From Thermoplasmata archaeon (lineage in GTDB: Archaea; Thermoplasmatota; Thermoplasmata; Thermoplasmatales; Thermoplasmataceae), in contig JAKAAY010000014.1 in assembly GCA_021802055.1 (NCBI GenBank), forward strand, positions 1-42,626: 42,626 nt of DNA, read 5' to 3'. The notes under the pieces are model-generated. The model worked only from the letters and a program-made list of their open reading frames with translations, was not told the origin of the DNA and ran no database searches. Within the stretch, counting starts at the first letter, position 1; the number at the start of each line of letters is the position of its first letter. A program made the translations under genes and the position numbers. Shown here in pieces: positions 4,881 to 31,228 of this stretch.

Positions 4881-5467
4881 CCAGGCGCCTGCTTTTTATC
4901 AGGCATGGGGAGAGTGAGTCCAACAGGCTTGGGCTTATATCCAACTGCAGAGACAGATATCATCTCCTTGAAGAGGGAAAGGAGCAGATCAATTTTATTT
5001 CGGAACATATCCACAATTTTGGCCTGAAGGTTGTATATACAAGTCCCTATGCCAGGGCAAGGGAAAGTGCAGAGATAATTTCATCAAACCTCGGCATTCC
5101 CATCATTGCGGACGAAAGGCTCAGGGAGACAGACTACGGTCAATTGAACAACACTGTCATGGTCGGGAGGGTGATAGACATGGACCCTGAAATGGCAAGA
5201 GAGCGGGGAGTGGAAAGTCTGGAATCCCACCGACTCAGAACAGACTCCTTTATGTCTGGCTGCCCGGACAGATCGGCAATTGTAACGCATGGGCTCGTTG
5301 TAAGGGCCGCCGTATCCATTATAACGGGGATAGGCCAGGATGAAATGGGAGGAATCCACATACGTCCCGGCTCCATGACCCTGCTGGATGCTGATCTGAA
5401 GAAAGTATACTCCATCGGTAATTTTCTCGTTTCAGGCAGAATGCAGAAAACATTCTCCCTGGACTAG
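4877..5467 (+). CDS. Histidine phosphatase family protein (copy 2)
   Basis: This 196-residue histidine phosphatase has the same architecture as its upstream neighbour: FIRHGESESN (H10 as nucleophile), TSPYARARESA (55-65) and the second histidine in THGLVVRA (H138). The ATG overlaps the previous stop (ATGA at 4877-4880), implying translational coupling. The pair probably arose by tandem duplication; whether they act as a heteromer or on different phosphoesters cannot be told from sequence. The stop overlaps by four bases the stop end of the convergent GAF-domain gene. Confidence 0.85.
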   Translation: MTRRLLFIRHGESESNRLGLISNCRDRYHLLEEGKEQINFISEHIHNFGLKVVYTSPYARARESAEIISSNLGIPIIADERLRETDYGQLNNTVMVGRVIDMDPEMARERGVESLESHRLRTDSFMSGCPDRSAIVTHGLVVRAAVSIITGIGQDEMGGIHIRPGSMTLLDADLKKVYSIGNFLVSGRMQKTFSLD

Positions 5468-5916
5468 AAGAAACTTTCCCCGAGCATATTGGCGATTTCT
5501 GTCACAAATCTCTCGTCTTCCTTGTCAAAGGCGTTCTTCAAGTCGGAATCTATGTCAATCTCACCAACTGCAAATCCGTTTTTCCTGACTGGAACCACCA
5601 GTTCTGATCTTGTTGTAGGGAAGCAGGCCAGATACTTTGAGTTTGATTTGACGTCGGCTTCGTTCACTATCTCGTTCTTTAGGACGGCAAGGCTACAGAG
5701 CCCATCCCCCAGGGCAATCTGCACGTGCTGGGTCTTTTCCCCCTCGAAGGTGTCTAGTTGAAGTTTATCCCCGGAGAGTACATAGATGCCTACCCAGTTG
5801 AACTTGTTTTCCTTCTGTTTCAGCCCACTGCACACATACGAAAAGGCGCTCTTTTTGCCATCCTTGACACGTGCCCTCAGTTCTTCTATGAAATTACGCC
5901 GCTCCTGTCTGTTCAT
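5464..5916 (-). CDS. GAF-domain protein, fRMsr-like (free methionine-(R)-sulfoxide reductase family)
   Basis: This is a single GAF domain of 150 residues with the fRMsr pattern: NWVGIYVL (40-47), LGDGLCSLAV (69-78), the YLACFPTTRSELVVPV segment (95-110) and GEIDIDS. fRMsr enzymes reduce free methionine-R-sulfoxide with three cysteines. Two are retained with the family spacing of 24 (C74 and C98), while the position ten residues before C74 is histidine (H64) instead of the third cysteine. It may be a reductase with altered recycling or a ligand-binding GAF protein. I chose the ATG at 5916: a TATA-like box (TTATAAATT, 5938-5946) lies 26 bases before it, whereas the ATG at 5928 would be too close to the box. 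Confidence 0.75.
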   Translation of the reverse strand: MNRQERRNFIEELRARVKDGKKSAFSYVCSGLKQKENKFNWVGIYVLSGDKLQLDTFEGEKTQHVQIALGDGLCSLAVLKNEIVNEADVKSNSKYLACFPTTRSELVVPVRKNGFAVGEIDIDSDLKNAFDKEDERFVTEIANMLGESFF

Positions 5917-5936
5917 CCCAGAGATCATTTTGTGCG

Positions 5937-5947
5937 GTTATAAATTC
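5937..5947 (-). promoter_or_regulatory. TATA-like box of the GAF-domain gene
   Basis: On the minus strand this reads AATTTATAACC. It is centred about 26 bases before the ATG at 5916 but only about 15 before the ATG at 5928, and so favours the shorter start. Confidence 0.5.
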
Positions 5948-6177
5948 GTAACGGTACCAGGGGGCGTCCAGTGAACCTTCTAACCGTGGGACTTTGTCCA
6001 CTGCAGTTATCCTCTGCGGCTCTGGTAGTTAACCTATGCAGGGGTGAGGGTAAGATTTACTGTGACATCCTCCCACCCCTAAAGGGTGTGGGATTTCTCG
6101 CTCACAGATGTTAAAAATGCACGACTTTCTATCTGAAAGCAACGGGGCGGTGACCGGTGCAAGGTTGATCCTACGTG
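5948..6177. other. Non-coding stretch between the GAF gene and cysS
   Basis: No credible gene was seen. The stretch holds the hairpin at 6064-6100 described separately, a TTAACC-rich segment around 6029-6034, and an ACCGGT palindrome near 6153. No tRNA could be folded by eye. Confidence 0.5.
6064..6100 (-). mobile_element. Solo IS200/IS605-like end (hairpin remnant)
   Basis: GACATCCTCCCACCCCTAAA, then GGGTGTGGGATTTCTC, closely resembles the right end that follows tnpB genes in IS200/IS605 (IS1341-type) elements, here inverted. CCCACCCCT (6072-6080) pairs with GGGTGTGGG (6084-6092) around AAA, with one mismatch and one wobble. No tnpA or tnpB remnant lies beside it, since cysS begins within 130 bases. 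I read it as a solo end or tiny remnant. The similarity to IS ends is from memory, not from a search. Confidence 0.45.
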
Positions 6178-6189
6178 CTTATATAAAAT
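6178..6189 (+). promoter_or_regulatory. TATA-like box of cysS
   Basis: CTTATATAAAAT is about 35 bases before the GTG at 6218. It ends only 5 bases before the ATG at 6194, so that ATG would not be in the mRNA of this promoter. Confidence 0.5.
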
Positions 6190-6217
6190 ATAAATGTCCC
6201 CAGTAAATAGCCTTATC

Positions 6218-7591
6218 GTGAATATATACAACACCCTCACACGCAGGCTGGAAGAGATAGTGCCAATGAAGAGAGGCAGGATCCGGCTATTTGTTTGCGG
6301 GCCAACGGTGTTCAATTTCATTCATCTGGGAAACGCCAGAACTTTTGTCCTCTTCGATTCTCTCGCCAAATACCTCACCGCTTCGGGTTATGAAGTTTTC
6401 TATCTTCAGAACATCACGGACATAGACGACAAGACTTTGAAGGTTGCAGCACAGACAGGTGTGCCATGGCAGGACGTTTCCAGCAGATTTTTTGAGGAAT
6501 ATCTCAGGGACATGAAGGCGCTGGGTGTGGATTCTGTTAACGTATACGCTAAGGCCACACTGTATATGGATGAGATCAGGTCCCAGATAAGGAGATTGAT
6601 GAACAGGGGATACGCCTACGAGACCCAGGACGGAGTGTATTTTCATGTTGAAAAATTCAGGGATATGGGTGAACTTTCTGGACAGAAGCTGGACAAGGTG
6701 GTACCCGGAAGCAGAGTTGTTCCAAGCGAACAAAAAATCAATCCTGTAGATTTTGTGCTGTGGAAGAAGCATAAGGCAGGAGAACCATCATGGGATTCGC
6801 CATGGGGCCCGGGAAGACCTGGATGGCACATAGAAGACACGGCCATTACTGAGAGCTTCTTTGGTTCCATGTACGATATCCATGGCGGCGGAAAAGACCT
6901 CGTGTTCCCACACCATGAAGCTGAGATTGGGCAGATGCGTGCCATATCCGGCAAGAAACACCTGGCAAGATACTGGATCCACGGGGGTTATCTCAACATG
7001 GGCGCGGACAAGATGTCAAAATCGGCAGGAAATTTTATAATGCTCAGGGAGGCACTTAAGAAATATACAAGGCAGCAGATCCGGTTCTTCCTGCTGAATG
7101 CCAATTACGCCTCTGACCTCCTTTACACAGAAGAACTGTTTAAGGCTTCATGTGAAGCGCTGGATAGAATACAGCATGCTTACGACATGGCGCTCGAAAA
7201 TGTTGACCGCCGGGAGTCAAACACGCTCAGCACAGGATACTACCTGTCGAGAATCAAGGGGCATCTGGATAATAATTTTGATACTAGGTCCGTTTTTGCC
7301 ACTCTCCTGGAAATGTCTTCGGAGATTTTCAGGACTGGCGGCAGGCTGCAGGGAGACTCCGCATCGGGGGCCATTGAGACGTTCCAGTATGTGGACAACA
7401 TTTTAGGCATTCTGGCGCAGGGGTCTGCAGCGTCAGACACCGGCAGGATCATCGAGGGAATTCTGAGGCTCAGGGAGGAATTCAGGAGAAGGAAGGACTT
7501 TTCAACCTCAGACATGATACGGAGGATTCTTGAGGACAGTGGAGTCAGGATTGAGGATGATGCGAGTGGCACTAAGTGGAAGATAGGTTAA
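6218..7591 (+). CDS. cysS: Cysteinyl-tRNA synthetase
   Basis: This class I synthetase attaches cysteine to tRNA(Cys). From the GTG at 6218 it is 457 residues and begins VNIYNTLTRR, the usual CysRS opening. CGPTVFNFIHLGNA (27-40) contains the HIGH-type motif, KMSKS is at 265-269 and FPHHEAE at 230-236. The zinc-site position that is cysteine in bacterial CysRS (WHIEC) is aspartate here (WHIED, D207); from memory some archaeal enzymes share this. An in-frame ATG at 6194 would add eight residues, but the TATA-like box at 6178-6189 nearly abuts it, so I prefer GTG 6218. The gene is followed after one base by a nicotinamidase-like gene and so may head an operon with NAD salvage. Confidence 0.95.
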   Translation: MNIYNTLTRRLEEIVPMKRGRIRLFVCGPTVFNFIHLGNARTFVLFDSLAKYLTASGYEVFYLQNITDIDDKTLKVAAQTGVPWQDVSSRFFEEYLRDMKALGVDSVNVYAKATLYMDEIRSQIRRLMNRGYAYETQDGVYFHVEKFRDMGELSGQKLDKVVPGSRVVPSEQKINPVDFVLWKKHKAGEPSWDSPWGPGRPGWHIEDTAITESFFGSMYDIHGGGKDLVFPHHEAEIGQMRAISGKKHLARYWIHGGYLNMGADKMSKSAGNFIMLREALKKYTRQQIRFFLLNANYASDLLYTEELFKASCEALDRIQHAYDMALENVDRRESNTLSTGYYLSRIKGHLDNNFDTRSVFATLLEMSSEIFRTGGRLQGDSASGAIETFQYVDNILGILAQGSAASDTGRIIEGILRLREEFRRRKDFSTSDMIRRILEDSGVRIEDDASGTKWKIG

Positions 7592-7592
7592 A

Positions 7593-8150
7593 ATGACGGG
7601 AAACAGCCATGAAAAAATAGCCATAGTCGTTGTGGATCTTGTCAATGACTTTGTAAGCGGTAAATTCGGTTCTCCCAGAGCCGAAGAAGTGGTAAGACAT
7701 GCAGCCGACTTCCTCAGAGATGCCCTGGGTAAACCAATGATTGTGTTCACCCTGGACACCCACATAAGGGGCGATCCGGAATTCAAGGTATGGGGAGAAC
7801 ACTGCCTCATGGATACCAACGCATCGGAACTGGCTCCCGAACTCAGGGACATCAGCGGTTTCAGGATCAGGAAGAGGCACTACGACAGCTTTTACGATTC
7901 CGACCTTGACGGGCTCCTCAGGTCTAAGGGCGTAACCAAAGTTTTCCTGATGGGTATAAGCACAGACATATGCGTCCTGCACACCTGTTCAGGGGCTTTC
8001 TTCAGGAACTACAGAATAAGCGTCATCAGTGATCTGTGTGCTTCTCTTGACGGAGGCAGGCACTTAAAAGCACTGGATGACATGAAGCTTCTATATGGAG
8101 CCAAAATCACTGATGCCAGACACGCTTTAGAGGAGATAAAGGAGAACTGA
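7593..8150 (+). CDS. pncA: Nicotinamidase-like cysteine hydrolase (isochorismatase superfamily)
   Basis: This 185-residue protein has the complete catalytic triad of the isochorismatase/nicotinamidase fold: D15 (VVVDLVNDF), K94 (IRKRHYDSF) and nucleophile C127 in GISTDICVLHTC. Metal-binding residues typical of PncA are also present: D55-x-H57 and H70 in WGEHC. PncA hydrolyses nicotinamide to nicotinate and ammonia. The next gene, two bases downstream, is nicotinate phosphoribosyltransferase, which uses that nicotinate, so nicotinamidase activity is the best reading. A different amidohydrolase of the same fold is possible. Its intact triad contrasts with the degenerate relative at 28206-28799. 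Confidence 0.85.
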   Translation: MTGNSHEKIAIVVVDLVNDFVSGKFGSPRAEEVVRHAADFLRDALGKPMIVFTLDTHIRGDPEFKVWGEHCLMDTNASELAPELRDISGFRIRKRHYDSFYDSDLDGLLRSKGVTKVFLMGISTDICVLHTCSGAFFRNYRISVISDLCASLDGGRHLKALDDMKLLYGAKITDARHALEEIKEN

Positions 8151-8151
8151 A

Positions 8152-9345
8152 ATGAGAATGAGCAGCGCTTCTGAAGAGGATATAAAATCCGGAAAGACAG
8201 CCGATGTTTATTTCGGGAAGACCGTGGGGATCCTATCTTCTGGTTTTCCGGACAGGCAGGTCATCATGGATGTGACGTTCTCCGGATCGGAGTTTCCATT
8301 CATACTTCTCTCTGGGCTCAACGATACTCTCTCGATGCTCGAAGGCAAGAATGTGGACGTTTTTGCAATTCCAGAAGGGACGTTGATCCCCAACCGTGAC
8401 ATTAAGGGCATACCTCTTCCTGTACTCAGCATTTCAGGCAGATACAGGGAATTCTCTGTGATGGAAACAGCACTGCTTGGGTCTCTCTCCCAGGCAAGCG
8501 GGATATCGACGAAATCATGCATGATACGGGCTGCGGCCGGTGATCTGCCGTATATCTCCTTTGGAATAAGGCGGATGCATCCGGCAATTTCTCCCATGAT
8601 CGACAGATCGGCCTTCATTGGTGGCGCAGATGGAGTTTCCGGGCTTATGGGTGCGGAACTCATAGGCCGCGATGCAGTCGGCACCATGCCACATGCGCTG
8701 TCGCTGCTGCTTGGAGATGAAGAAGCATGGAAGATGTGCGCCGGCATTACAAACGGGAAGAAAACACTGCTCATTGATACGTTCGACGATGAGAAATTTG
8801 CTGCACTGAAGGCAGCGCGACTCATCAAAGACCTAGACTACGTCAGGCTTGACACACCATCCTCCAGGAGGGGAAACTTCGGGAATATTGTGCGCGAGGT
8901 CCGATGGGAGCTTGATCTGCGGGGGTACAAAAATGTGAAAATCATGGTTTCCGGCGGCCTGGACGTTGAATCAGTGATGGATCTCAGAAAGGCTGGAGCA
9001 GAGGCATTCGGCGTTGGAACATCAGTTGCATCTGCAAAGCCTGTTGACTTTGCCCTTGACATTGTGGAGATTGAGGGAAATCCCATAGCAAAGAGGGGCA
9101 AATACTCAGGAAGGAAGAAGGTCCTAAGATGCCAGGATTGCAGGAAGGTTAGCGTGGTACCAATTGATGCAAAGGATGAAAATTGCAGCTGCGGCGGAGA
9201 AATGGAAAACCTGCTCAAACCCGTCATGAAAAAGGGTAAAATGGTTGGCAGATATCCAAGCCCACCAGAGATCCGGGAAAGGGCCATGGATGAAATGAAG
9301 AAGGGAAGCGCCCTGCTCTCGCTGGTAATTGAAAATGGTGATTGA
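8152..9345 (+). CDS. pncB: Nicotinate phosphoribosyltransferase
   Basis: This 397-residue enzyme converts nicotinate and PRPP to nicotinate mononucleotide. It has the archaeal NAPRTase layout: an N-terminal segment with TADVYFGKT, a phosphoribosyltransferase barrel with VSGGLDVESV and FGVGTSVASAKP near the phosphate site, and a C-terminal zinc-finger-like element with C327, C330, C345 and C347. A crystal structure of the Thermoplasma acidophilum relative is known. It sits directly behind the nicotinamidase-like gene, completing nicotinamide to NaMN salvage in two adjacent genes. Its end overlaps the start of the following S53 protease gene by 11 bases. Confidence 0.93.
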   Translation: MRMSSASEEDIKSGKTADVYFGKTVGILSSGFPDRQVIMDVTFSGSEFPFILLSGLNDTLSMLEGKNVDVFAIPEGTLIPNRDIKGIPLPVLSISGRYREFSVMETALLGSLSQASGISTKSCMIRAAAGDLPYISFGIRRMHPAISPMIDRSAFIGGADGVSGLMGAELIGRDAVGTMPHALSLLLGDEEAWKMCAGITNGKKTLLIDTFDDEKFAALKAARLIKDLDYVRLDTPSSRRGNFGNIVREVRWELDLRGYKNVKIMVSGGLDVESVMDLRKAGAEAFGVGTSVASAKPVDFALDIVEIEGNPIAKRGKYSGRKKVLRCQDCRKVSVVPIDAKDENCSCGGEMENLLKPVMKKGKMVGRYPSPPEIRERAMDEMKKGSALLSLVIENGD

Positions 9346-12217
9346 AATCGTCGGAACCAAACGGGTAAAGAGACTGGACAGCCAGTTTGTCTTGAAGCTT
9401 CTGGCAGTTGGGATTACAATCCTGATGATAGGTTACATTCCCAGTTCCATCAATGCCCAGGGCAGGAGCCAATTTTCCGGGATCAGTTATGTCATTCCAC
9501 CCGGGGTTGCCGGCACCATTGGAGGTACGTCTCCGGTAGGAGCCATCAACCCCGGCACCGTTATGCACGTTCTTGTAACGTTCTCTTTGAACGATCAGAC
9601 CGGCCTGAATGCATTACTTGCAGGTCTTCAAGATCCATCATCGCCGGAATTCCATCACTACCTCACGCAGGAGCAATTCACCCATCTCTTTTCACCCGGA
9701 CTGTCCGAATATGACAGGTACATGAAGTACTTCGAGTCCCAGGGGTTCTCTGTCAGGAGCTATGGTGACCGGGTTTCAATGGAGCTTACGGGCAATGCGT
9801 CTCAGTTCCAGTCCGCTTTTCATACAACCATAATGCAGTATGCGTTGAGAACAAGGACTTACTATGCCCCATCAGGACAGCTTTCCCTTAGCGTGTACTT
9901 CGGCTCCATCTCATCGGTATCAGGTCTGAGCGACAGGCATCTGCCACACATAGCTCCTCTGTTCACGGGGTCCGGCTCCGGAGAAACCGTGTTTGGCTCT
10001 GATTTCCAGCCGGCATACCAGCTTACCCCGGTCTATTCAAAATACGGGTATCCTGTAAACGCCACGATAGCCACCATCCTGTGGTCAGGCAGCAGCGGCG
10101 GTGTAAATTATCCGCCGTTCGTACCCTCGGATATATACAACTACACGAAGAATTACTATCCCTCCAATGAGCCTCAGCCGAAAATATACGCATACCCCTT
10201 CGGGGGTGCACCACTTCCCGGATACAATGCGAAAAACGATCCAACCCATACAAACATAGAAAGCACGCTGGATCTGGAGATGGCAGCATCTGTAGCCCCC
10301 GGGGCAAACGTTATCGAGGTCTACGGAGCGAACCCGACTCTATCCTGTCTCAACACTGCCTTCGCGAACATTCTTAACCCTTCATACAACACAACCGTGG
10401 ACAACCTGCTGGGAAATGTCAGCGTCATCTCAAACTCATGGGGAACCAACGATACAAACGATTCGACATGGATGACGTATGAACAGGAGGCTGCGGCAAG
10501 AGGCATATCGATCTTCGCATCTTCGGGGGATAACGGGAACACACCCAGTCCGCTCCCAAGCTTCCCGGCATCAATGGCTTATAACTATTTTGGCACCACC
10601 TCCGTCGGTGGCACATATACAGTGCTGTCGGGAACAGCATCAAACAACGGCTCCGGCACCACCGGGATAACGAATCAATCAACATGGTTCAATCTCCCCA
10701 AAACGGGAAACGGGAGCCAGGGAGGCATCAGCCAGGTTTTCACTGAACCCATGTGGCAGACTGATAGCCCCGATGCCAGTTCTGTCATTGCTTCTGAAGC
10801 TTCGAAACTAGGTCTCAAGAATGGAGTGGGCGTTCCTGACTTATCTGGTGTCGGAGTAAACATGGGGATATGTCTCTCCACCTCATCAGGCAGCGGCCTT
10901 TACGCTGTAGACGGAACCAGTATATCGGCACCGCTGGTCGCAGGATTATTCGCCGTAATTGACCATTCCATGCCTGGAAGAGTGGGCTATGCCAACCCCT
11001 CTATATTCAAGCTTGGCAACATGCAGTACAATGGCTCGTTTTCAGGCGCAGAACCATTTTATTCGATCACTCAGGGAGCAAATGCAGTCTACAGCAGTGG
11101 TCCGGGTTACAACCTTGTCAATGGATGGGGAACGCTGAACGCTTCCAACTTTATTGCTGCTTATGAGCGCGCTTACGTATATACAGGCAAGATCAACTTT
11201 CAGGAGACTGGCCTCCCGGCAGGAGCCAGCTGGACCGTAAACCTTTCAGGGACCACAAGGAACACCACCGGTGCCAATATCTCATTCACCCTTCCATATG
11301 GTTCTTATGGTTTTTCAATAAACAATTCGGCCCACATCAGGGTTTATCCCAGCACAGGAACGGTCAATCTGAGCTCGCCAGGTCTCAACGTGTCCGTATT
11401 TATGAGCAATCGGACCTATAACGTATCTTTCATACAGAAGGGACTACCAGCAGGTCTCTCATGGTCCGTAACACTCAATGGCACCTCAAGGAACACAACA
11501 GGTACGAACATCACATTCCCCGTTCCTATAGGGAAATATCCCTTCAGCATTCCGGTTCAGGCTGGATATTTGACGCTGAATTCTACCGGCTATGTGGTTG
11601 TTACTGATACCAACGTCACGATTCAGGTGGTATTCGGGAAAGGGTACAATATCACCTTCTATGCACACGGACTCCCCAGGGGCACTTACTGGGTTGTCAA
11701 GCTGAACGGTACCCAGCAGGGTTCCTCGACTACCGCCATAAATTTTCTTGAACCAAATGGAACCTATGACTATCTGGTGTTTGCGACGGCCGGTTATATT
11801 CCATCAGTAGCATCAGGAATAATTGACATACACGGAAGCAGCAGGTCCATAAATGTGTCGTTCAATTCTGCTCTCAATCAGGCCAGGTTCATACTCAACG
11901 GGTATCTCAACGGTGCACCGTGGGTTATTGATATCAATGGGGCGAACTTCACGAGCTTCAATACAACCTTCATAGTCGGGCTGAGCGACGGAAGCTACGT
12001 CTATTCAGTGTCGCTTGGAATGAATGGCAGCAGACCCGTATATATGGGCACTCTTAATGTGCAGGGTGCCGACAAAACGATCTACATAAACCTCACAAAG
12101 AACTCGAGGGAGGATATTCTGGGCTACATCTTTGCCATATCTTTTGTCTCAGTTGGTATTATACTCATCGGCACGGGACTTCACCTATCAAGGCCAAAGA
12201 GGAAAATCAGGCTATAG
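9335..12217 (+). CDS. Membrane-anchored S53 (sedolisin/kumamolisin-like) acid protease
   Basis: This is a 960-residue secreted serine-carboxyl peptidase. After an N-terminal signal or anchor (about 20-43) comes a pro-kumamolisin activation domain (SPEFHHYLTQEQF), then the catalytic domain with E309 and D313 (IESTLDLE), oxyanion-site D399 (SSGDNG) and nucleophile S529 (DGTSISAP). Four repeats of about 75-80 residues with a GLP-x-G-x-x-W-x-V-x-L-N/S-G core start near 618, 695, 770 and 849. A final membrane helix (about 926-948) is followed by a basic tail. The calcium-site aspartates expected near the catalytic C terminus appear as S577 (FYSIT) and N593 (GPGYN). Many N-x-S/T sites suggest a glycosylated surface protein. 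An upstream TTG at 9329 would add two residues. It overlaps the previous gene by 11 bases. Confidence 0.93.
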   Translation: MVIEIVGTKRVKRLDSQFVLKLLAVGITILMIGYIPSSINAQGRSQFSGISYVIPPGVAGTIGGTSPVGAINPGTVMHVLVTFSLNDQTGLNALLAGLQDPSSPEFHHYLTQEQFTHLFSPGLSEYDRYMKYFESQGFSVRSYGDRVSMELTGNASQFQSAFHTTIMQYALRTRTYYAPSGQLSLSVYFGSISSVSGLSDRHLPHIAPLFTGSGSGETVFGSDFQPAYQLTPVYSKYGYPVNATIATILWSGSSGGVNYPPFVPSDIYNYTKNYYPSNEPQPKIYAYPFGGAPLPGYNAKNDPTHTNIESTLDLEMAASVAPGANVIEVYGANPTLSCLNTAFANILNPSYNTTVDNLLGNVSVISNSWGTNDTNDSTWMTYEQEAAARGISIFASSGDNGNTPSPLPSFPASMAYNYFGTTSVGGTYTVLSGTASNNGSGTTGITNQSTWFNLPKTGNGSQGGISQVFTEPMWQTDSPDASSVIASEASKLGLKNGVGVPDLSGVGVNMGICLSTSSGSGLYAVDGTSISAPLVAGLFAVIDHSMPGRVGYANPSIFKLGNMQYNGSFSGAEPFYSITQGANAVYSSGPGYNLVNGWGTLNASNFIAAYERAYVYTGKINFQETGLPAGASWTVNLSGTTRNTTGANISFTLPYGSYGFSINNSAHIRVYPSTGTVNLSSPGLNVSVFMSNRTYNVSFIQKGLPAGLSWSVTLNGTSRNTTGTNITFPVPIGKYPFSIPVQAGYLTLNSTGYVVVTDTNVTIQVVFGKGYNITFYAHGLPRGTYWVVKLNGTQQGSSTTAINFLEPNGTYDYLVFATAGYIPSVASGIIDIHGSSRSINVSFNSALNQARFILNGYLNGAPWVIDINGANFTSFNTTFIVGLSDGSYVYSVSLGMNGSRPVYMGTLNVQGADKTIYINLTKNSREDILGYIFAISFVSVGIILIGTGLHLSRPKRKIRL

Positions 12218-18165: not shown

Positions 18166-19251
18166 ATGAACGACCAACCTTTTCTTGATAAAGTGGATGC
18201 TTTGGAATTCTATGTGGGCTCTGCCAAACACTGGGCATATTTTCACAAGAATGCAATGGGATTTGATATGGTGGGTTATTCCGGACCTGAAACTGGAGTC
18301 AGAGACCGGGTCTCTTACCTGATGCAGCAGGGAGAGGTAAAAATAAAGCTCACAAGCTTTATCACACAGGACTCGGAAATAGGCAATCACTTTAAGGTTC
18401 ACGGGGATGGGATCAAGGACATATCTATCCGAGTTGAAGACGTCGATGAGTCGGTAGCAGCAATAGAGAAGCGAGGCATAGTCAAGCCCGGTAAAATTTC
18501 CAAAATTGAGACCGGAAACGGGAAGTTGAGGGCCTCAGTGATCAGATCTTATGGGGATACCGTTCACACTCTCACTGATTACTCAGATTACAACTCTGAA
18601 CTGCCGCCTGGATATGATTATGTGGAATCCAGGGGGAAGTCATCCGGTATAAAGAAGATTGACCATGTTGTAGGTAATGTGGAAGATTCAAAGATGGACT
18701 ACTGGGTGAATTACTATGTGAAGGGACTCGACTTCAAACAACTCATAAGCTTTGATGACAAGGATATCAGCACAAAGTATTCCGCCTTAAGATCAAAGGT
18801 GGTGCACTACAACAACAGAAAGATAATCTTCCCGATCAATGAACCAGCGCTGGGATTGAAGAAGTCGCAGATACAGGAGTTCCTGGATTATTATAACTCG
18901 CCGGGAGCGCAACATGCCGCGCTGCTCACCGACGACATAATCAAGACTGTTTCACAGATGAAGGAAAGGGGCGTGGAATTCCTTCCGACACCCCCGTCTT
19001 ATTATGAAACCCTGAAGGATCGTGTTGGTTCCATAGACGAGGATATCGAGAAACTTAAGAAACTTGATATTCTGGTGGACAGGGATGAGGATGGTTATCT
19101 CCTGCAGATATTCACCAAGCCCATGGGAGACAGGCCAACCTTCTTCTATGAAATTATTCAGAGAAAGGGAGGCACATCCTTTGGCAAGGGAAACTTCAAG
19201 GCTCTCTTCGAATCCATCGAGCAGGAGCAGGCAAAGAGAGGAAACCTGTAG
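18166..19251 (+). CDS. hpd: 4-hydroxyphenylpyruvate dioxygenase
   Basis: This 361-residue two-domain VOC-fold dioxygenase converts 4-hydroxyphenylpyruvate to homogentisate. The iron triad is visible in the C-terminal domain: H167 (KIDHVVGNV), H250 (GAQHAALLT) and E329 (FFYEIIQR). The terminal segment FGKGNFKALFESIEQEQ is the usual HPPD signature. Hydroxymandelate synthase has the same fold, but the operon (homogentisate dioxygenase and an FAH-family hydrolase follow with 5 and 9 base gaps) fixes the role as tyrosine catabolism. An aminotransferase at 24307-25455 could supply the substrate but is not in the operon. Confidence 0.95.
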   Translation: MNDQPFLDKVDALEFYVGSAKHWAYFHKNAMGFDMVGYSGPETGVRDRVSYLMQQGEVKIKLTSFITQDSEIGNHFKVHGDGIKDISIRVEDVDESVAAIEKRGIVKPGKISKIETGNGKLRASVIRSYGDTVHTLTDYSDYNSELPPGYDYVESRGKSSGIKKIDHVVGNVEDSKMDYWVNYYVKGLDFKQLISFDDKDISTKYSALRSKVVHYNNRKIIFPINEPALGLKKSQIQEFLDYYNSPGAQHAALLTDDIIKTVSQMKERGVEFLPTPPSYYETLKDRVGSIDEDIEKLKKLDILVDRDEDGYLLQIFTKPMGDRPTFFYEIIQRKGGTSFGKGNFKALFESIEQEQAKRGNL

Positions 19252-19256
19252 GAACC

Positions 19257-20150
19257 ATGAAGTTAGCCATAGTAAGGAAGGGAACCACGAGGGTTACCGT
19301 TTTCAGCAATGCCAACGAACTGTATTCACTGGCTGAAAGTCTCGGGATATCTCAGGAAGAGCTTGACAGTAATTTTTATCTCTACTTGGAGAGGTTGATC
19401 TCTGGACAGATCCATTTGGACACCATAGGTGACCCCGTCGATGATTACACATTCGACATTCCGGTACCGTCAGTCACAAGCATAAGGGATTTCTATGCCT
19501 TCGAGGGACATGTGATGAACGCGCGAAAGAGACGCGGCTTTCAGGTGCCTGATGAATGGTACAGAATGCCTGTTTTCTATTACAGCAACACTTCAAATCT
19601 CTTTGCGTCCGGAGCCAGCGTGCCGAGGCCGTCCTATACAAAGGAACTGGATTTTGAGGGTGAATTCGCCTTTCTCGTTGGAAAAGATGGCATAAATATT
19701 AAGGAAGAAAGGGCATGGGATCATGTGTATGGCGTTACGCTGGCAAATGACTGGAGCGCCAGGGATGTCCAACTCAGGGAATATTCAGTGGGCCTTGGTC
19801 CTGCCAAGGCAAAAGACTTTGCCACGAGCCTCGGGCCATTCCTGGTCACCAGGGATGAGATTGCCTCAAGGATCATCGGGGAAAAGATCGATCTGGACCT
19901 GGAGGTTATCCGTAATCAGCGTATATTTGGCTCGGGGAATTTTAAGGACATTTACTGGAATCTGGGACAGATGATTCAATGGGCCTCCACGGATTCCTGG
20001 CTTAGGAAAGGGGACATAATAATGAGTGGCACGGTCCCTGGCTGCTGCATTTTTGAGGCGGGACCGGACAAGGAGGGATGGGTGTCTCCAGGGGAAAGGA
20101 TTACGATACGTTCCTCAATGATAGGAAGTCTGGATAATAAAGTGTCATAA
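19257..20150 (+). CDS. Fumarylacetoacetate hydrolase family protein
   Basis: This 297-residue FAH-fold hydrolase has metal ligands E134 and E136 (DFEGEFA) and D165 (ANDWSARD). N-terminal D78 and H85 (IRDFYAFEGH) have the same seven-residue spacing as the metal and catalytic residues of animal fumarylacetoacetase. It should cleave the ring-opened product of homogentisate to acetoacetate and fumarate or maleate. It sits between hpd and homogentisate dioxygenase. No maleylacetoacetate isomerase is encoded nearby, so it may act directly on maleylacetoacetate. Confidence 0.9.
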   Translation: MKLAIVRKGTTRVTVFSNANELYSLAESLGISQEELDSNFYLYLERLISGQIHLDTIGDPVDDYTFDIPVPSVTSIRDFYAFEGHVMNARKRRGFQVPDEWYRMPVFYYSNTSNLFASGASVPRPSYTKELDFEGEFAFLVGKDGINIKEERAWDHVYGVTLANDWSARDVQLREYSVGLGPAKAKDFATSLGPFLVTRDEIASRIIGEKIDLDLEVIRNQRIFGSGNFKDIYWNLGQMIQWASTDSWLRKGDIIMSGTVPGCCIFEAGPDKEGWVSPGERITIRSSMIGSLDNKVS

Positions 20151-20159
20151 GGTGGGAAG

Positions 20160-21308
20160 ATGGTATACTACGTAAAACAGGGAAATATGCCTTCAAGCAG
20201 GCACACATACACAAGCATGGATCGCTTGTACAGGGAGGAGCTATTTGGAGAGGAAAGCTTCGACGGCCCATACTCGCTCCTCTACCACATGGGGGAGCCC
20301 ACAAGGGTCAAGAGCATCACACGGGTGAACAAGAAGTCCTCAGATCCTGTGGAGGAAATGGGCCACAAGCACCTCGTTGGTTCACGGATACAGGCATCTG
20401 GGGACTTTTACGACGGGCGAAGATATCTTCTGGTCAACAAGGATGTGAAGATAGGCCTCCTGAAACCGGAAAAGGAGCCAAAGGACCTTTTCAGAAGTGC
20501 TCTGTATGAACAGCTTTTCTATGTTCAAAAGGGGACGGGCTCCATAAAGAGTCTGCAGGGCATTGTGAAGTTAAGGGCGGGAGATTACGTATATATTCCA
20601 AAGGGCACAACCTATTTTCCGGAATACTCAAGAGGATCAGAATTTTTCTTCGTTGAAACCGCGCAGAGGATCACCATACCCCCGCGTTATCTCAACGCCT
20701 ATGGCCAGCTCAAGGAAGGCTCGCCATATTATTCCAGGGACATCGTGCCTCCCGCATTGGCCTACTATGATTCAGCCCCTGCATCTCTGAACGTGATGGT
20801 GGATTTTGGAGATCACTACATCCGAGAGGAAAGAGACGAGTCTATGTTTGACGTTGTGGGATGGGATGGCTACCTCTACCCTTTTGCAATCAATAAAGAC
20901 TCCATGGCCCCTATTGTGGGCAAACTGCACATGCCTCCTCCTGTACATGAAACTTTCTGCGGAAAAGGGTTCATGATCGGGACTTTTCTGCCAAGGAAGT
21001 TCGATTTCCACCCCAGATCAATCCCAATTTCCTATTACCACAGCAACATCGATGTGGATGAAGTGCTGTTCTATTCCAGCGGGAACTTCATGAGCCGAAA
21101 GGGCATATCTGAGGGCTCCATAACAGTCCATGTTAGAGGGCTAGTCCATGGCCCGCAGCCCGGTATGGTTGAGAAATCCATTGGAAAGGGGGAAACAGAT
21201 GAGGTTGCAGTAATGGTAGAAACAAACGACCCCCTCTCCGTTACGCAGGATGGCAGCAACATCCTCGACAGGTCATACATGGAATCGTGGTATGAGGGCA
21301 AACCATAA
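20160..21308 (+). CDS. hmgA: Homogentisate 1,2-dioxygenase
   Basis: This 382-residue cupin-type dioxygenase opens the ring of homogentisate to 4-maleylacetoacetate. Iron-site residues are H294 (YYHSN), E301 (DVDEVLFY) and H330 in GLVHGPQPG. The PVHETF and FHPRSIPISYYH stretches match the homogentisate dioxygenase branch with the HSNxDxDEV signature, which differs from the animal YHRNxMSE form. It is the third gene of the tyrosine operon, nine bases after the FAH gene. Confidence 0.93.
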   Translation: MVYYVKQGNMPSSRHTYTSMDRLYREELFGEESFDGPYSLLYHMGEPTRVKSITRVNKKSSDPVEEMGHKHLVGSRIQASGDFYDGRRYLLVNKDVKIGLLKPEKEPKDLFRSALYEQLFYVQKGTGSIKSLQGIVKLRAGDYVYIPKGTTYFPEYSRGSEFFFVETAQRITIPPRYLNAYGQLKEGSPYYSRDIVPPALAYYDSAPASLNVMVDFGDHYIREERDESMFDVVGWDGYLYPFAINKDSMAPIVGKLHMPPPVHETFCGKGFMIGTFLPRKFDFHPRSIPISYYHSNIDVDEVLFYSSGNFMSRKGISEGSITVHVRGLVHGPQPGMVEKSIGKGETDEVAVMVETNDPLSVTQDGSNILDRSYMESWYEGKP

Positions 21309-27180: not shown

Positions 27181-28179
27181 ATGAAACTTAAAGATCTCGG
27201 GGAAAGGGAGTTGATTAGGCGGATTTTCTCTGTGCAGGACATGCATCAGGAAAAGGATGACTGTGCAATGCTTGAGAATGGTGACGAATACCTGCTCGTC
27301 TCATCTGACATAGTTTCTGACATAACCAATATTCCCAGGAATGTGAAACCTGAGTCCATTGGAAAATTCTTTGCTGCAGTCAACCTAAGTGACATTGCTG
27401 CAATGGCCGGAATCCCAACGGCATTTGTATCTTCCATCTCCATAGATCCGGATGCTGAGTGGGACTACCTGAATGGAATAGAGGACGGTATGCATTCAAT
27501 GCTGCGCAAACATAAGACAGAACTTATCGGAGGCGATCTTAAGGAGGGGTCAGGTCTCACGCTCACAGGTACGGTACTGGGTCACCAAAAGAAATCCAGA
27601 ACCAGAAAGAGGTCAGATATCCTAGCAGGTCAGATACTTGGCGTAACCAATGAACTAGGCAAAGCAGGTGCTGCGTATGTCTTCTATTCAAGTGGTTACA
27701 TGGGAACCAGGGCATCGGAAATGCTCATAAACGTGGAGCCACGAATACGTGAGGGCCAGATCATCAGTGAATACGGCGGCAAATTTTTGACCGATCTCTC
27801 GGACGGTGTTGCCTCCGCCGCAGTTCAGGCAAACAACGACTTCGGGCTTGGATTCAAGCTTGTGGAGCACGATATCCCGGTCAACAGGCATGTGAAAAAG
27901 GCGGCGGAAATTTCAGGCAGGGACAGCATGGAGATCGCGCTGGGCTATGGTGGAGACTATGAACTGCTGTTCACGGTGGATAATGCCAACGTGAGGGACT
28001 TTCTCGCGGGGATGGAAAGTAATGGAATCAACGTTTCTCTCATCGGGGAAGTATGGAAAGGAAACAACATACTGTTCGACGGAGACGTATGGAAAAATAT
28101 GGAATACAGGGGATTCGAACACTTCACAAATGCAGCGGGTAAAGAGCACTTAGGCTCTTTGCCACAAAAGAAGGCTTAA
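27181..28179 (+). CDS. thiL: Thiamine-monophosphate kinase
   Basis: This 332-residue ThiL (AIRS/PurM-fold ATP enzyme) phosphorylates thiamine monophosphate to the active diphosphate. Motifs in order: KDDCAML near 26-32, SSDIVSD, NLSDIAAMAGIP (metal/ATP site), GGDLKEG, the SDG of LTDLSDGV, and GYGGDYELLF near the C terminus. The length is normal. It follows RaSEA in the same direction. The next gene starts 27 bases later but has its own TATA-like box over the thiL stop. Confidence 0.93.
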   Translation: MKLKDLGERELIRRIFSVQDMHQEKDDCAMLENGDEYLLVSSDIVSDITNIPRNVKPESIGKFFAAVNLSDIAAMAGIPTAFVSSISIDPDAEWDYLNGIEDGMHSMLRKHKTELIGGDLKEGSGLTLTGTVLGHQKKSRTRKRSDILAGQILGVTNELGKAGAAYVFYSSGYMGTRASEMLINVEPRIREGQIISEYGGKFLTDLSDGVASAAVQANNDFGLGFKLVEHDIPVNRHVKKAAEISGRDSMEIALGYGGDYELLFTVDNANVRDFLAGMESNGINVSLIGEVWKGNNILFDGDVWKNMEYRGFEHFTNAAGKEHLGSLPQKKA

Positions 28180-28183
28180 ATAC
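28174..28183 (+). promoter_or_regulatory. TATA-like box of the mevalonate-type operon
   Basis: GCTTAAATAC overlaps the thiL stop and is centred 27 bases before the ATG at 28206. The four overlapping genes that follow can therefore start their own leaderless transcript. Confidence 0.5.
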
Positions 28184-28205: not shown

Positions 28206-28799
28206 ATGGAATCAGAGGACAGCACTGAATCCCTGATCCGCGATCGCAAAAAGCTCGCGGTCCTTGGCATTAACGTAAATTCCAGCACGTTTGGGAGAAT
28301 ATTCAGCAAGCTGGAATTTCTCACTGCATTTTCATACCTGAGGGATATCGTGGATAAAAATTCCATTCCCTACCACTCAGTTGAATACGAAGGATATGCT
28401 CTCCCCGGTGATCATATCGACGACTTGGTCCTGAAGAAGATTGGTGTCATTGGAAGAAAGACGGCCAGTACAATCAGCACCCCTTCTGAATACCAGGTTC
28501 AATTCAGTGCGCTCGAGAAATGGGGGATGATCAGGTCCCATGGTCAGAGCAACCTTGGGCAGGCACTGGAATCAATCAGAAAAACCGGCATCAAAAACGT
28601 TTTCCTGAGCGGATTTATTACAGAATTTAACATACTGGGGGCCTCATTTGAAACGATAAAACGTGGAATGGTGCCCGTGGTCATCAGCGATGCAGTGTCC
28701 TCTCCCAATGAGCGGTTACATTTCCACGGGCTGGAAATCCTGTCCAATTTTTGCTTTATAGCGGATTCAAGGGACCTGATGAAAGGGTGGGACATATGA
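28206..28799 (+). CDS. Isochorismatase-like protein with degenerate catalytic site (probable pseudoenzyme)
   Basis: This 197-residue protein shows the isochorismatase-like fold pattern in its second half: GIKNVFLSGFITEFNILGAS (128-147), then VPVVISDAVSS and HFHGLEIL. By hand alignment with the intact relative at 7593-8150, the nucleophilic cysteine becomes N142 (ITEFN where active enzymes have T-x-x-C), the N-terminal aspartate becomes N23 (LGINVN) and the lysine falls on S111/H112. All three triad positions therefore appear lost, pointing to a binding or structural role. It has its own promoter and its stop overlaps the next gene by four bases (ATGA), so it leads the operon encoding two probable mevalonate-pathway enzymes. 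The function is unknown. Confidence 0.75.
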   Translation: MESEDSTESLIRDRKKLAVLGINVNSSTFGRIFSKLEFLTAFSYLRDIVDKNSIPYHSVEYEGYALPGDHIDDLVLKKIGVIGRKTASTISTPSEYQVQFSALEKWGMIRSHGQSNLGQALESIRKTGIKNVFLSGFITEFNILGASFETIKRGMVPVVISDAVSSPNERLHFHGLEILSNFCFIADSRDLMKGWDI

Positions 28800-29419
28800 T
28801 GTCTGGCAGGAGAAAGAAGGTTATATTCATAGGAGGCACACCTGGGGTTGGCAAGACCAGCATCTCCGGATACCTGGCCAAAGCTCTCGGGATAGATCTC
28901 GTGCTATCCGGAGATTATCTCAGAGAATTCCTGAGGGGTTCGGATCCGGAAAGATTCAGGAATCTCTCCGTAAGCGTATATGATTCCTGGAAACTGTATG
29001 GCGAAAGGACACGGGAGAACCTTCTGAAAGGTTTTATGGATCAGGCGGTGGTCATGAACCGGGGTTTCGAGAGCATCATCAGCAGGAGTGTCAGCAATGG
29101 CGAACCGCTCATAGTGGAGACCCTGTACTATGTTCCCAATTTCCTTGAAACATTCTTCCATAGCCTGGTTACATTTTACCTGTATATAGGCGACGAGTCA
29201 ACTCACAGGCTGCATTTGAATGAGAGGACTCGTTTCACGCATCCCGATTCGCCTGGAGAGCGGCTTTCCGCTCATCTGGACGAGTACAGGGAAATAATGA
29301 ATACCTCAATGGATCTTTGCAATGAACATGGGATTAAGACATTTGACACCAGCGATTTCATCAGTGCCCGCGACAGAATCCTTATATATGTGAAGCAGGA
29401 GTTCGGGAATGAACATTGA
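28796..29419 (+). CDS. 2-phosphoglycerate-kinase-like P-loop kinase, probable mevalonate-3-phosphate 5-kinase
   Basis: This 207-residue P-loop kinase has Walker A GTPGVGKT (14-21). SGDYLREFLRG, SWKLYGERTRENLLKGFMDQ and IVETLYYVPNFLE follow, corresponding to the 2-phosphoglycerate kinase (COG2074) family pattern. From memory, Thermoplasma acidophilum mevalonate-3-phosphate 5-kinase (TA0762) belongs to this kinase type. The next gene is a diphosphomevalonate decarboxylase homologue, which makes M3P 5-kinase the best call; true 2-phosphoglycerate kinase is the alternative. I start at ATG 28796: it overlaps the previous stop as ATGA and has GGTGG at 28787-28791 upstream. The open frame extends to 28751, inside the previous gene. 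Confidence 0.8.
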   Translation: MMSGRRKKVIFIGGTPGVGKTSISGYLAKALGIDLVLSGDYLREFLRGSDPERFRNLSVSVYDSWKLYGERTRENLLKGFMDQAVVMNRGFESIISRSVSNGEPLIVETLYYVPNFLETFFHSLVTFYLYIGDESTHRLHLNERTRFTHPDSPGERLSAHLDEYREIMNTSMDLCNEHGIKTFDTSDFISARDRILIYVKQEFGNEH

Positions 29420-30521
29420 ATCGCTCACTTCAGAGGGCAGGAAAATAGAGCGACGGCTCATGGATCTGGGCGTCATCCGGGAGACAAGAAGTCTGGAGGC
29501 CAGACCTGAGGAAGCAACCACTGCATTTGGAGTGGGGTATCCCATGAAAGCCATGGAAAAATTCCTGGGATACTATGACAATTCATTGAAGATCGCATAT
29601 AACCCATCCATTTCCATATCAACTGACTTTTCTTATTGTCTCAGTGCGTGCAGATATATCGCGCGGGGTTCAAATGACAGGGTTTTCCTGGACGGTGAGG
29701 AAAGTCAACTATATCTGGAAAGAGCGAAACATGCACTAGATTATGTCAGAAATGCATATGGACTATCCGGCAGTTTCCATTTCTATATCAGGAGATACAG
29801 GAAATATACAGATGCAAAGGGTATGAGCGAATCCGCTTCCGTTGCCACCTCAGTGGCCATGGCTATGTCCATGCTTCTCTTCCAGTCGGAGGCAGATGAA
29901 TCGATCATTTCCGAACTGGCCAGGTTTGTATCCGGTTCAGGAACCAGGGGTATTTTCAGGGGGACAGCCTTTTGGCTCTCATATCCTGGGATAAGCCATA
30001 GGATGTGCCACGCAGCTAGGGTGGCAGACTTCCCTAAAGGCCTGAAATACGGTATATTCCCAAAGTCAAGCAGTGTCATGACCTCATCCGCCCATAGGAT
30101 AGCAGTCGCCTCTGGCTTTTACAGTTCCTGGGTGAAATCCAAGTATCCAGTCCTTAACGACCTTCTGGACTCATCCTTTGAAACATCCATGCTGCTGGCA
30201 AGGGGGCAGCAGGAGATGTATAACCTCAACGCGATCATGCTCTCCGGCTCTGTGTTTCTTCAGACTTCCGAGAGCCTCAAACTCATTCGTGCTCTCCAGG
30301 AATTTCAGAAGTCAAACGAGGGAATCTTCTTGACTGGCGACACGGGCCCGTCTATAATGGTGGCCTCTCTGGACGGAAGCCTCATCAGGGAGTTTGCATC
30401 CTCCGTAGAAGACGTCTACTTGCCAGGAGGTCAGGATTTCAGTCAGCACAATAAGAGCAACATAGCTTTCAGAAGTGAGGCTGAATCTGTCCTGAATGAC
30501 ATGGCCAGGAATGTGCAATGA
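29409..30521 (+). CDS. Diphosphomevalonate decarboxylase homologue, probable mevalonate 3,5-bisphosphate decarboxylase
   Basis: This 370-residue GHMP-superfamily protein is related to diphosphomevalonate decarboxylase. AMEKFLGYYDNSLKIAYNPS resembles the KYWGKRD...LPxNxS start of that family, GMSESASVATSVAMAM is the nucleotide loop, and TGDTGPSI (309-316) aligns with the FDAGPN motif of the decarboxylase. D311 keeps the catalytic aspartate. The Thermoplasma mevalonate 3-kinase (TA1305) lacks an aspartate there as I recall and is shorter, about 318 residues. Retained D311 and length favour the mevalonate 3,5-bisphosphate decarboxylase (TA0893-type), which makes isopentenyl phosphate for lipid synthesis. 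The gene overlaps the upstream kinase by 11 bases and the HNH gene by four. Confidence 0.8.
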   Translation: MNIESLTSEGRKIERRLMDLGVIRETRSLEARPEEATTAFGVGYPMKAMEKFLGYYDNSLKIAYNPSISISTDFSYCLSACRYIARGSNDRVFLDGEESQLYLERAKHALDYVRNAYGLSGSFHFYIRRYRKYTDAKGMSESASVATSVAMAMSMLLFQSEADESIISELARFVSGSGTRGIFRGTAFWLSYPGISHRMCHAARVADFPKGLKYGIFPKSSSVMTSSAHRIAVASGFYSSWVKSKYPVLNDLLDSSFETSMLLARGQQEMYNLNAIMLSGSVFLQTSESLKLIRALQEFQKSNEGIFLTGDTGPSIMVASLDGSLIREFASSVEDVYLPGGQDFSQHNKSNIAFRSEAESVLNDMARNVQ

Positions 30522-31228
30522 TTGCGGAGAATGTGTACAAGAACATTTCACGCGTGCCAATTTCACACTTGCAGAAGGTTTCAGATGCCTTTTCCATAGC
30601 ATCTGTGTGTGACTTCCTGCCGGAAGGTGACAGGGAATCCCCCAGTATAGCATGGCAAAGGATATCCAGGGCTGTGCTGATGCGAGACCATTATGCATGC
30701 AGAATCTGTGGAAGCAGCAGCCTGGGAGAGGTCAACGCTGATGAACCTTTTGCCAGGCACCACTTTGCAGTGCAGGTCCATCACATAATACCAAGAAATG
30801 CAGGTGGAAGAGACAGTTTCGGGAATCTCATAACTCTCTGCGAGGAATGCCATAGAAAAACTTTCAAGGGGGGCTATTCAGGAATCCCTGTCAGTTCCCA
30901 GACCACCCTTGACTCGGTGGATGAAAGGATCAGTCTCTGCCTCCCACTTGAGGTTGCTGGAATGCTCTCTCTCCCGCACAGAAAGACAGCGATTTCAAAC
31001 TTTGCCAGGATAACTGACGATGCCTCCGGAGCAAAGGCCGCAACCATAGCAGAGGGCTCAACGTTGGAGTGTGCGATGCTGAATCTCAAGAGGGACCGAT
31101 ATCAGGAAGTGCTCGGGAAGCTGCTTGAGGAGTTTGACCTGGACGACTACGAGACATTCATGATCTCAGAGAGAGACAGAGAAGCGTCATGCAGGGTTCT
31201 CATAGGCCCGCATGGGTATTTCCTGTAA
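30518..31228 (+). CDS. HNH-motif protein (putative nuclease)
   Basis: This 236-residue protein has a complete HNH/zinc motif. C61 and C64 (RDHYACRICG), the H88-H89 pair (VQVHHIIPR), N103 (FGNLITLC) and C108/C111/H112 (CEECH) form the McrA/HNH-type site: two CxxC metal knuckles around a catalytic His and Asn. The C-terminal 110 residues have no recognised domain. The ATG overlaps the decarboxylase stop (ATGA), so it is translated as part of the mevalonate-type operon. Its target is unknown: a DNA-repair or defence nuclease carried along, or a repurposed metal-binding protein, are both possible. It converges with the DAO oxidoreductase, with nine bases between. Confidence 0.85.
   Translation: MIAENVYKNISRVPISHLQKVSDAFSIASVCDFLPEGDRESPSIAWQRISRAVLMRDHYACRICGSSSLGEVNADEPFARHHFAVQVHHIIPRNAGGRDSFGNLITLCEECHRKTFKGGYSGIPVSSQTTLDSVDERISLCLPLEVAGMLSLPHRKTAISNFARITDDASGAKAATIAEGSTLECAMLNLKRDRYQEVLGKLLEEFDLDDYETFMISERDREASCRVLIGPHGYFL

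Follow-up and report, generated by a model that had tools for sequence, protein, structure and literature searches.

A predicted operon of the Thermoplasma-type mevalonate route in a Thermoplasmata archaeon, with a conserved isochorismatase-fold protein lacking catalytic residues

The Thermoplasma-type mevalonate pathway, described by Vinokur et al. (PMC5177888), is an acid-adapted route to isoprenoids (membrane lipids) in which one decarboxylase reaction is divided between two enzymes. For one of its enzymes, the mevalonate 3,5-bisphosphate decarboxylase (MBD) of Picrophilus torridus (PtoMBD), PMC9254496 reports that Asp309 is essential, that the arginines R218 and R220 are dispensable and that the enzyme is activated by GGPP. 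This activation is the only published hint on flux control that we found. Yelton et al. (2011) linked a DUF35 protein to mevalonate genes by synteny (PMC3197636), a protein other than the one considered below.

The cluster analysed here lies in a window of 42,626 nucleotides, the whole stretch of DNA studied, from an acidophilic Thermoplasmata archaeon (contig JAKAAY010000014.1). Four genes at 28206-31228 very probably form an operon of the Thermoplasma-type route, in which genes 2 and 3 encode its mevalonate-3-phosphate 5-kinase (M3P5K) and MBD. What lifts the cluster above the routine is gene 1, a widely conserved pseudo-enzyme gene for which we found no description; the two enzymes belong to a known pathway. 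Neither the cluster nor gene 1 is mentioned in the searched passages of PMC5177888, PMC9254496, PMC11052028, PMC8975820 and PMC11349054, which deal with the pathway and with the acquisition of its enzymes by Micrarchaeota.

Gene cluster, promoter and pathway context

All four genes are co-directional on the + strand. Gene 1 (28206-28799, 197 aa) encodes an isochorismatase-fold protein without catalytic residues, gene 2 (28796-29419, 207 aa) the putative M3P5K, with a P-loop GGTPGVGKT, gene 3 (29409-30521, 370 aa) the putative MBD, with catalytic Asp311, and gene 4 (30518-31228, 236 aa) an HNH endonuclease-like protein with a C-terminal beta domain. The initial annotation described four genes overlapping end to end, by 4, 11 and 4 bases, behind one TATA-like box; the open reading frames bear this out, and we place the box, CTTAAATA, at 28175-28182 on the + strand, 31 bases 5′ of the gene 1 ATG, from its sequence and from positional enrichment in homologous loci. 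It overlaps the stop of the upstream ThiL (thiamine-phosphate kinase) gene at 27181-28179, which in turn follows an archaeosine radical-SAM gene (RaSEA). The same annotation had called the overlaps fixed, which does not hold among relatives: most loci have a gene 1/2 junction between -23 and +10 and a gene 2/3 junction between -32 and +117, and a few lie outside these ranges.

A scan of 37 loci for the best TATA-like match up to 60 bases upstream of each gene placed that match at -36 to -24 in 54% of loci in the case of gene 1; genes 2-4 gave 22-25%, near the roughly 25% expected by chance. The loci are mutually related, and the counts are accordingly not independent. At such a spacing, the box would give a leaderless transcript. 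Shine-Dalgarno-like motifs of at least 4 bases stand upstream of gene 2 in 70% and of gene 3 in 76% of the 37 loci, and here the gene 2 ATG sits inside ATGATG. The enrichment of the box before gene 1 alone, together with these motifs, fits one leaderless transcript starting from gene 1. The gene overlaps and the promoter position are likewise consistent with a single transcript, and comparison with homologous loci suggests co-transcription of all four genes.

Gene 2 would phosphorylate mevalonate 3-phosphate at the 5-OH, giving mevalonate 3,5-bisphosphate, which gene 3 would convert to isopentenyl phosphate by eliminating the 3-phosphate and losing CO2, with no ATP used; both activities are predicted by homology. 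The preceding step would be supplied by a mevalonate 3-kinase (M3K) encoded on contig C6 (389.7 bits, cut-off 440) and the following one by an isopentenyl phosphate kinase (IPK) encoded on contig C14 (237.6 bits, above its cut-off of 120). Judged from sequence, the Thermoplasma-type route is complete here, from mevalonate to isopentenyl diphosphate. Elsewhere in the window, three consecutive genes at 18166-21308 are likely a tyrosine degradation cluster: they encode a 4-hydroxyphenylpyruvate dioxygenase (390 bits), a hydrolase resembling fumarylacetoacetase and a protein weakly similar to homogentisate dioxygenase.

The isochorismatase-fold protein

Gene 1 had been read as a degenerate isochorismatase-like protein, an assignment that agrees with a kept fold and a lost triad. 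It matches Pfam PF00857 (Isochorismatase) at 32.4 bits (cut-off 27), as do all 31 homologues, and its AlphaFold model (pLDDT 88) gives best Foldseek matches to isochorismatases (E 2.9e-7). The catalytic Asp is replaced by Asn in all 31 homologues, the Lys is unconserved and the Cys position is mostly Asp or Glu. An active isochorismatase or nicotinamidase was rejected because these catalytic positions are lost; a nicotinamidase-like paralogue at 7593-8150 of the window, serving as internal control, keeps all three residues. A nicotinate phosphoribosyltransferase gene (456 bits) follows that intact hydrolase gene at a distance of 1 base, the two (7593-9345) forming a likely nicotinamidase–NAPRTase salvage pair. 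Besides the start Met, 11 residues of gene 1 are invariant across the 31 homologues (N23, F29, K35, E37, G136, S161, D162, S165, E169, D187 and R189). Conservation of this kind alongside a lost triad indicates that gene 1 is selected for a role other than the chemistry of its family.

The initial annotation saw no known place for gene 1 in isoprenoid synthesis, but its distribution ties it more strongly to the pathway than that suggests. Among 77 genomes of the family, 67 carry M3P5K and 63 carry gene 1, 62 of these together with M3P5K. We consider, tentatively and as the leading mechanism, that gene 1 serves M3P5K/MBD as a partner or regulator without any catalysis of its own; the pseudo-enzyme would bind one of the two enzymes, or a small ligand, and adjust flux or stability. 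That it evolved from an isochorismatase-fold hydrolase into a non-catalytic subunit or regulator dedicated to these enzymes, and hence an undescribed extra component of the pathway, is a proposal we hold a little more loosely.

About as likely is that gene 1 has no functional link to the mevalonate enzymes, acting as a small-molecule binder or still as a catalyst for another pathway and sharing their transcript by chance, a serious possibility that stays short of an even chance. The two genes abut in 46 of the 62 family genomes that have both and lie apart in the other 16; in three of those examined, the unlinked gene 1 adjoins a GPN-loop GTPase gene. The 4 M3P5K-bearing genomes of genus g16 also lack gene 1, which gives no match in 9 of 11 genomes with a Micrarchaeota-type M3P5K (the other 2 match weakly, at 52-55 bits). 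Most homologues carry an acidic residue where the Cys used to be, which makes new chemistry conceivable. Such a chance association sits less easily with the presence of gene 1 in so many M3P5K carriers, with the 46 kept junctions and with its restriction to the family that has the pathway: the 40 genomes searched outside this family, from the five remaining families of the order, contain no strong match to gene 1, and none to M3P5K. Since some M3P5K carriers do without gene 1, a partner or regulator would be an accessory that the enzymes do not strictly need. Encoded directly before M3P5K, this dead-enzyme candidate partner is a concrete, testable candidate for flux control.

Conservation of gene order and the HNH protein

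Among the fetched neighbourhoods, 11 other family genomes and a Thermogymnomonas locus with frameshifts share the order gene 1 – M3P5K – MBD – HNH, and a convergent FAD oxidoreductase gene usually comes next; examples of the order are Thermogymnomonas acidicola (L243) and the complete genome ASS_A1 (L181). Its recurrence in related genomes shows that the arrangement goes beyond chance. In the T. acidicola locus (5385-10581), most cluster and neighbour genes are split by frameshifts in a pattern that looks like sequencing error and not decay. Adjacency of M3P5K and MBD extends to most Micrarchaeota loci. Some of those loci are altered, with the order of the two genes reversed (L221), the genes on opposite strands (L229) or about 1 kb inserted (L200). 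A lone M3P5K gene occurs in Ferroplasma and relatives (L233, L226, L234-L240), where it belongs to a different conserved block: ThiI, 8-oxoguanine glycosylase, superoxide dismutase and M3P5K, after which most have two convergent genes, for a cystathionine synthase-like protein and a homoserine kinase.

The conserved order could reflect slow rearrangement of this chromosomal stretch only, with no selection for linkage. In many of these genomes the convergent FAD oxidoreductase gene and a CDC48 gene likewise remain close to the cluster, and the shared order may be partly plain regional synteny. As the whole explanation, slow rearrangement is unlikely: upstream, RaSEA and ThiL are kept in only 3 fetched genomes, and each central junction also turns up in different surroundings. 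Gene 1 adjoins M3P5K with MBD elsewhere in Thermoplasma-like and other genomes (L201, L222, L194 and L208), and M3P5K adjoins MBD with no gene 1 beside them in Micrarchaeota (L206, L210 and L223) and E-plasma (L182). The survival of these junctions in new contexts argues that they are kept independently of general synteny, and the variable upstream neighbours mark gene 1 as the 5′ boundary. Distance correlations gave a partial value of 0.51 for gene 1 with MBD, -0.03 for gene 1 with M3P5K and 0.63 for HNH with the convergent neighbour, from 13 loci, which are too few to tell whether M3P5K or MBD would be the gene 1 partner.

The annotation had suggested that all four genes form a functional unit. 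Its order is kept and gene 1 is tied to the pathway, but the patchy HNH gene leaves a unit of all four unsupported. Gene 4 matches Pfam PF01844 at 45.5 bits and has an intact nuclease motif, and its HNH/zinc-ribbon residues (C61, C64, H88, H89, N103, C108, C111 and H112) are invariant in 22 sequences. The C-terminal beta domain has a weak Foldseek match (E 3e-3) to the gamma-glutamyl cyclotransferase fold, which serves as a lead only. A known defence nuclease was rejected as an identity, the PADLOC matches being weak and confined to the shared HNH core.

A functional role for gene 4 in isoprenoid synthesis, for instance through its C-terminal domain, would suit its constant position: in all 29 family genomes that have both it and M3P5K, it lies downstream of M3P5K/MBD, within 4.5 kb of M3P5K. 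Homologues are found in only 32 of the 77 family genomes, however, and in one lineage (L152) MBD is followed directly by the next gene, the HNH gene having been cleanly lost. The same core recurs in shorter HNH relatives in family f3, which has no strong M3P5K match, and there adjoins a single-stranded-DNA-binding protein gene. A part for gene 4 in the isoprenoid unit is thus quite improbable, and we infer that it is probably a passenger nuclease with a DNA-related role of its own. The neighbourhood of the short relatives in f3 (L166-L170) is strongly conserved and comprises an Ssb-like OB-fold protein, a DedA protein and an M50 peptidase.

Enzyme assignments and comparison with described systems

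Profile scores support both enzyme assignments of the initial annotation. Among NCBIfam models, M3P5K (NF008996) gives gene 2 its top score, 234.6 bits, just below the curated cut-off of 250, and the P-loop is invariant in the homologue alignment. A 2-phosphoglycerate kinase of the cyclic 2,3-diphosphoglycerate route is a highly improbable identity for gene 2, although it shares the protein superfamily and supplies the second-best NCBIfam models, because these score 93.6 bits, about 140 below M3P5K, gene 2 adjoins MBD in most lineages and the pathway otherwise needs an M3P5K step; it was rejected on profile scores and context. Neither true 2-phosphoglycerate kinases nor unrelated GHMP kinases emerged as best matches.

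Gene 3 scores highest with the bisphosphomevalonate decarboxylase model NF040847 (411.6 bits, below the cut-off of 560), and the other models compared (DMD/PMD/M3K) are far lower, with 54.4 bits for diphosphomevalonate decarboxylase and 51.3 for another. With scores more than 100 bits apart, and on context, DMD/PMD was rejected. The nearest solved structure is Picrophilus MBD (PDB 7t71, E=5.6e-62; next structure 8.6e-10). Asp311 of gene 3, aligning with Asp309 of PtoMBD, is invariant in 21 homologues. The M3K encoded on contig C6 carries a TGG motif in place of the catalytic Asp, as expected of a non-decarboxylating kinase.

Genes 2 and 3 are thus supported, by homology, as an M3P5K and an MBD that are divergent members of their families. 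As both fall below the NCBIfam cut-offs, their identity rests on relative scores and context, and automatic naming could miss them. Gene order, which the earlier proposal expected to be shared, is indeed kept in related genomes, and this conservation supports M3P5K/MBD annotation in uncultured acidophiles where the curated cut-offs just miss these enzymes.

Compared with the pathway of T. acidophilum (Ta1305, Ta0762 and Ta0893; PMC5177888), this genome likewise encodes the three signature enzymes and IPK. The arrangement differs, M3P5K and MBD being adjacent and overlapping here and apart in Thermoplasma-like genomes; the earlier statement that the two are unlinked in Thermoplasma agrees with Thermoplasma sp. 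FL, which has MBD on another contig. Gene 3 is homologous to PtoMBD (PDB 7t71) over residues 5-336 and shares its catalytic Asp, with serines in place of the loop arginines R218 and R220. Gene 4 shares a zinc-ribbon HNH core of about 60 residues with IscB and EcoKMcrA-type HNH nucleases, the rest being unrelated. Gene 1 shares the fold and the C-terminal half of its sequence with isochorismatase-like hydrolases (PhzD, EntB, YcaC and nicotinamidases), but it lacks their Asp-Lys-Cys, or the Asp-Lys-Gly of isochorismatase proper, and has invariant residues of its own.
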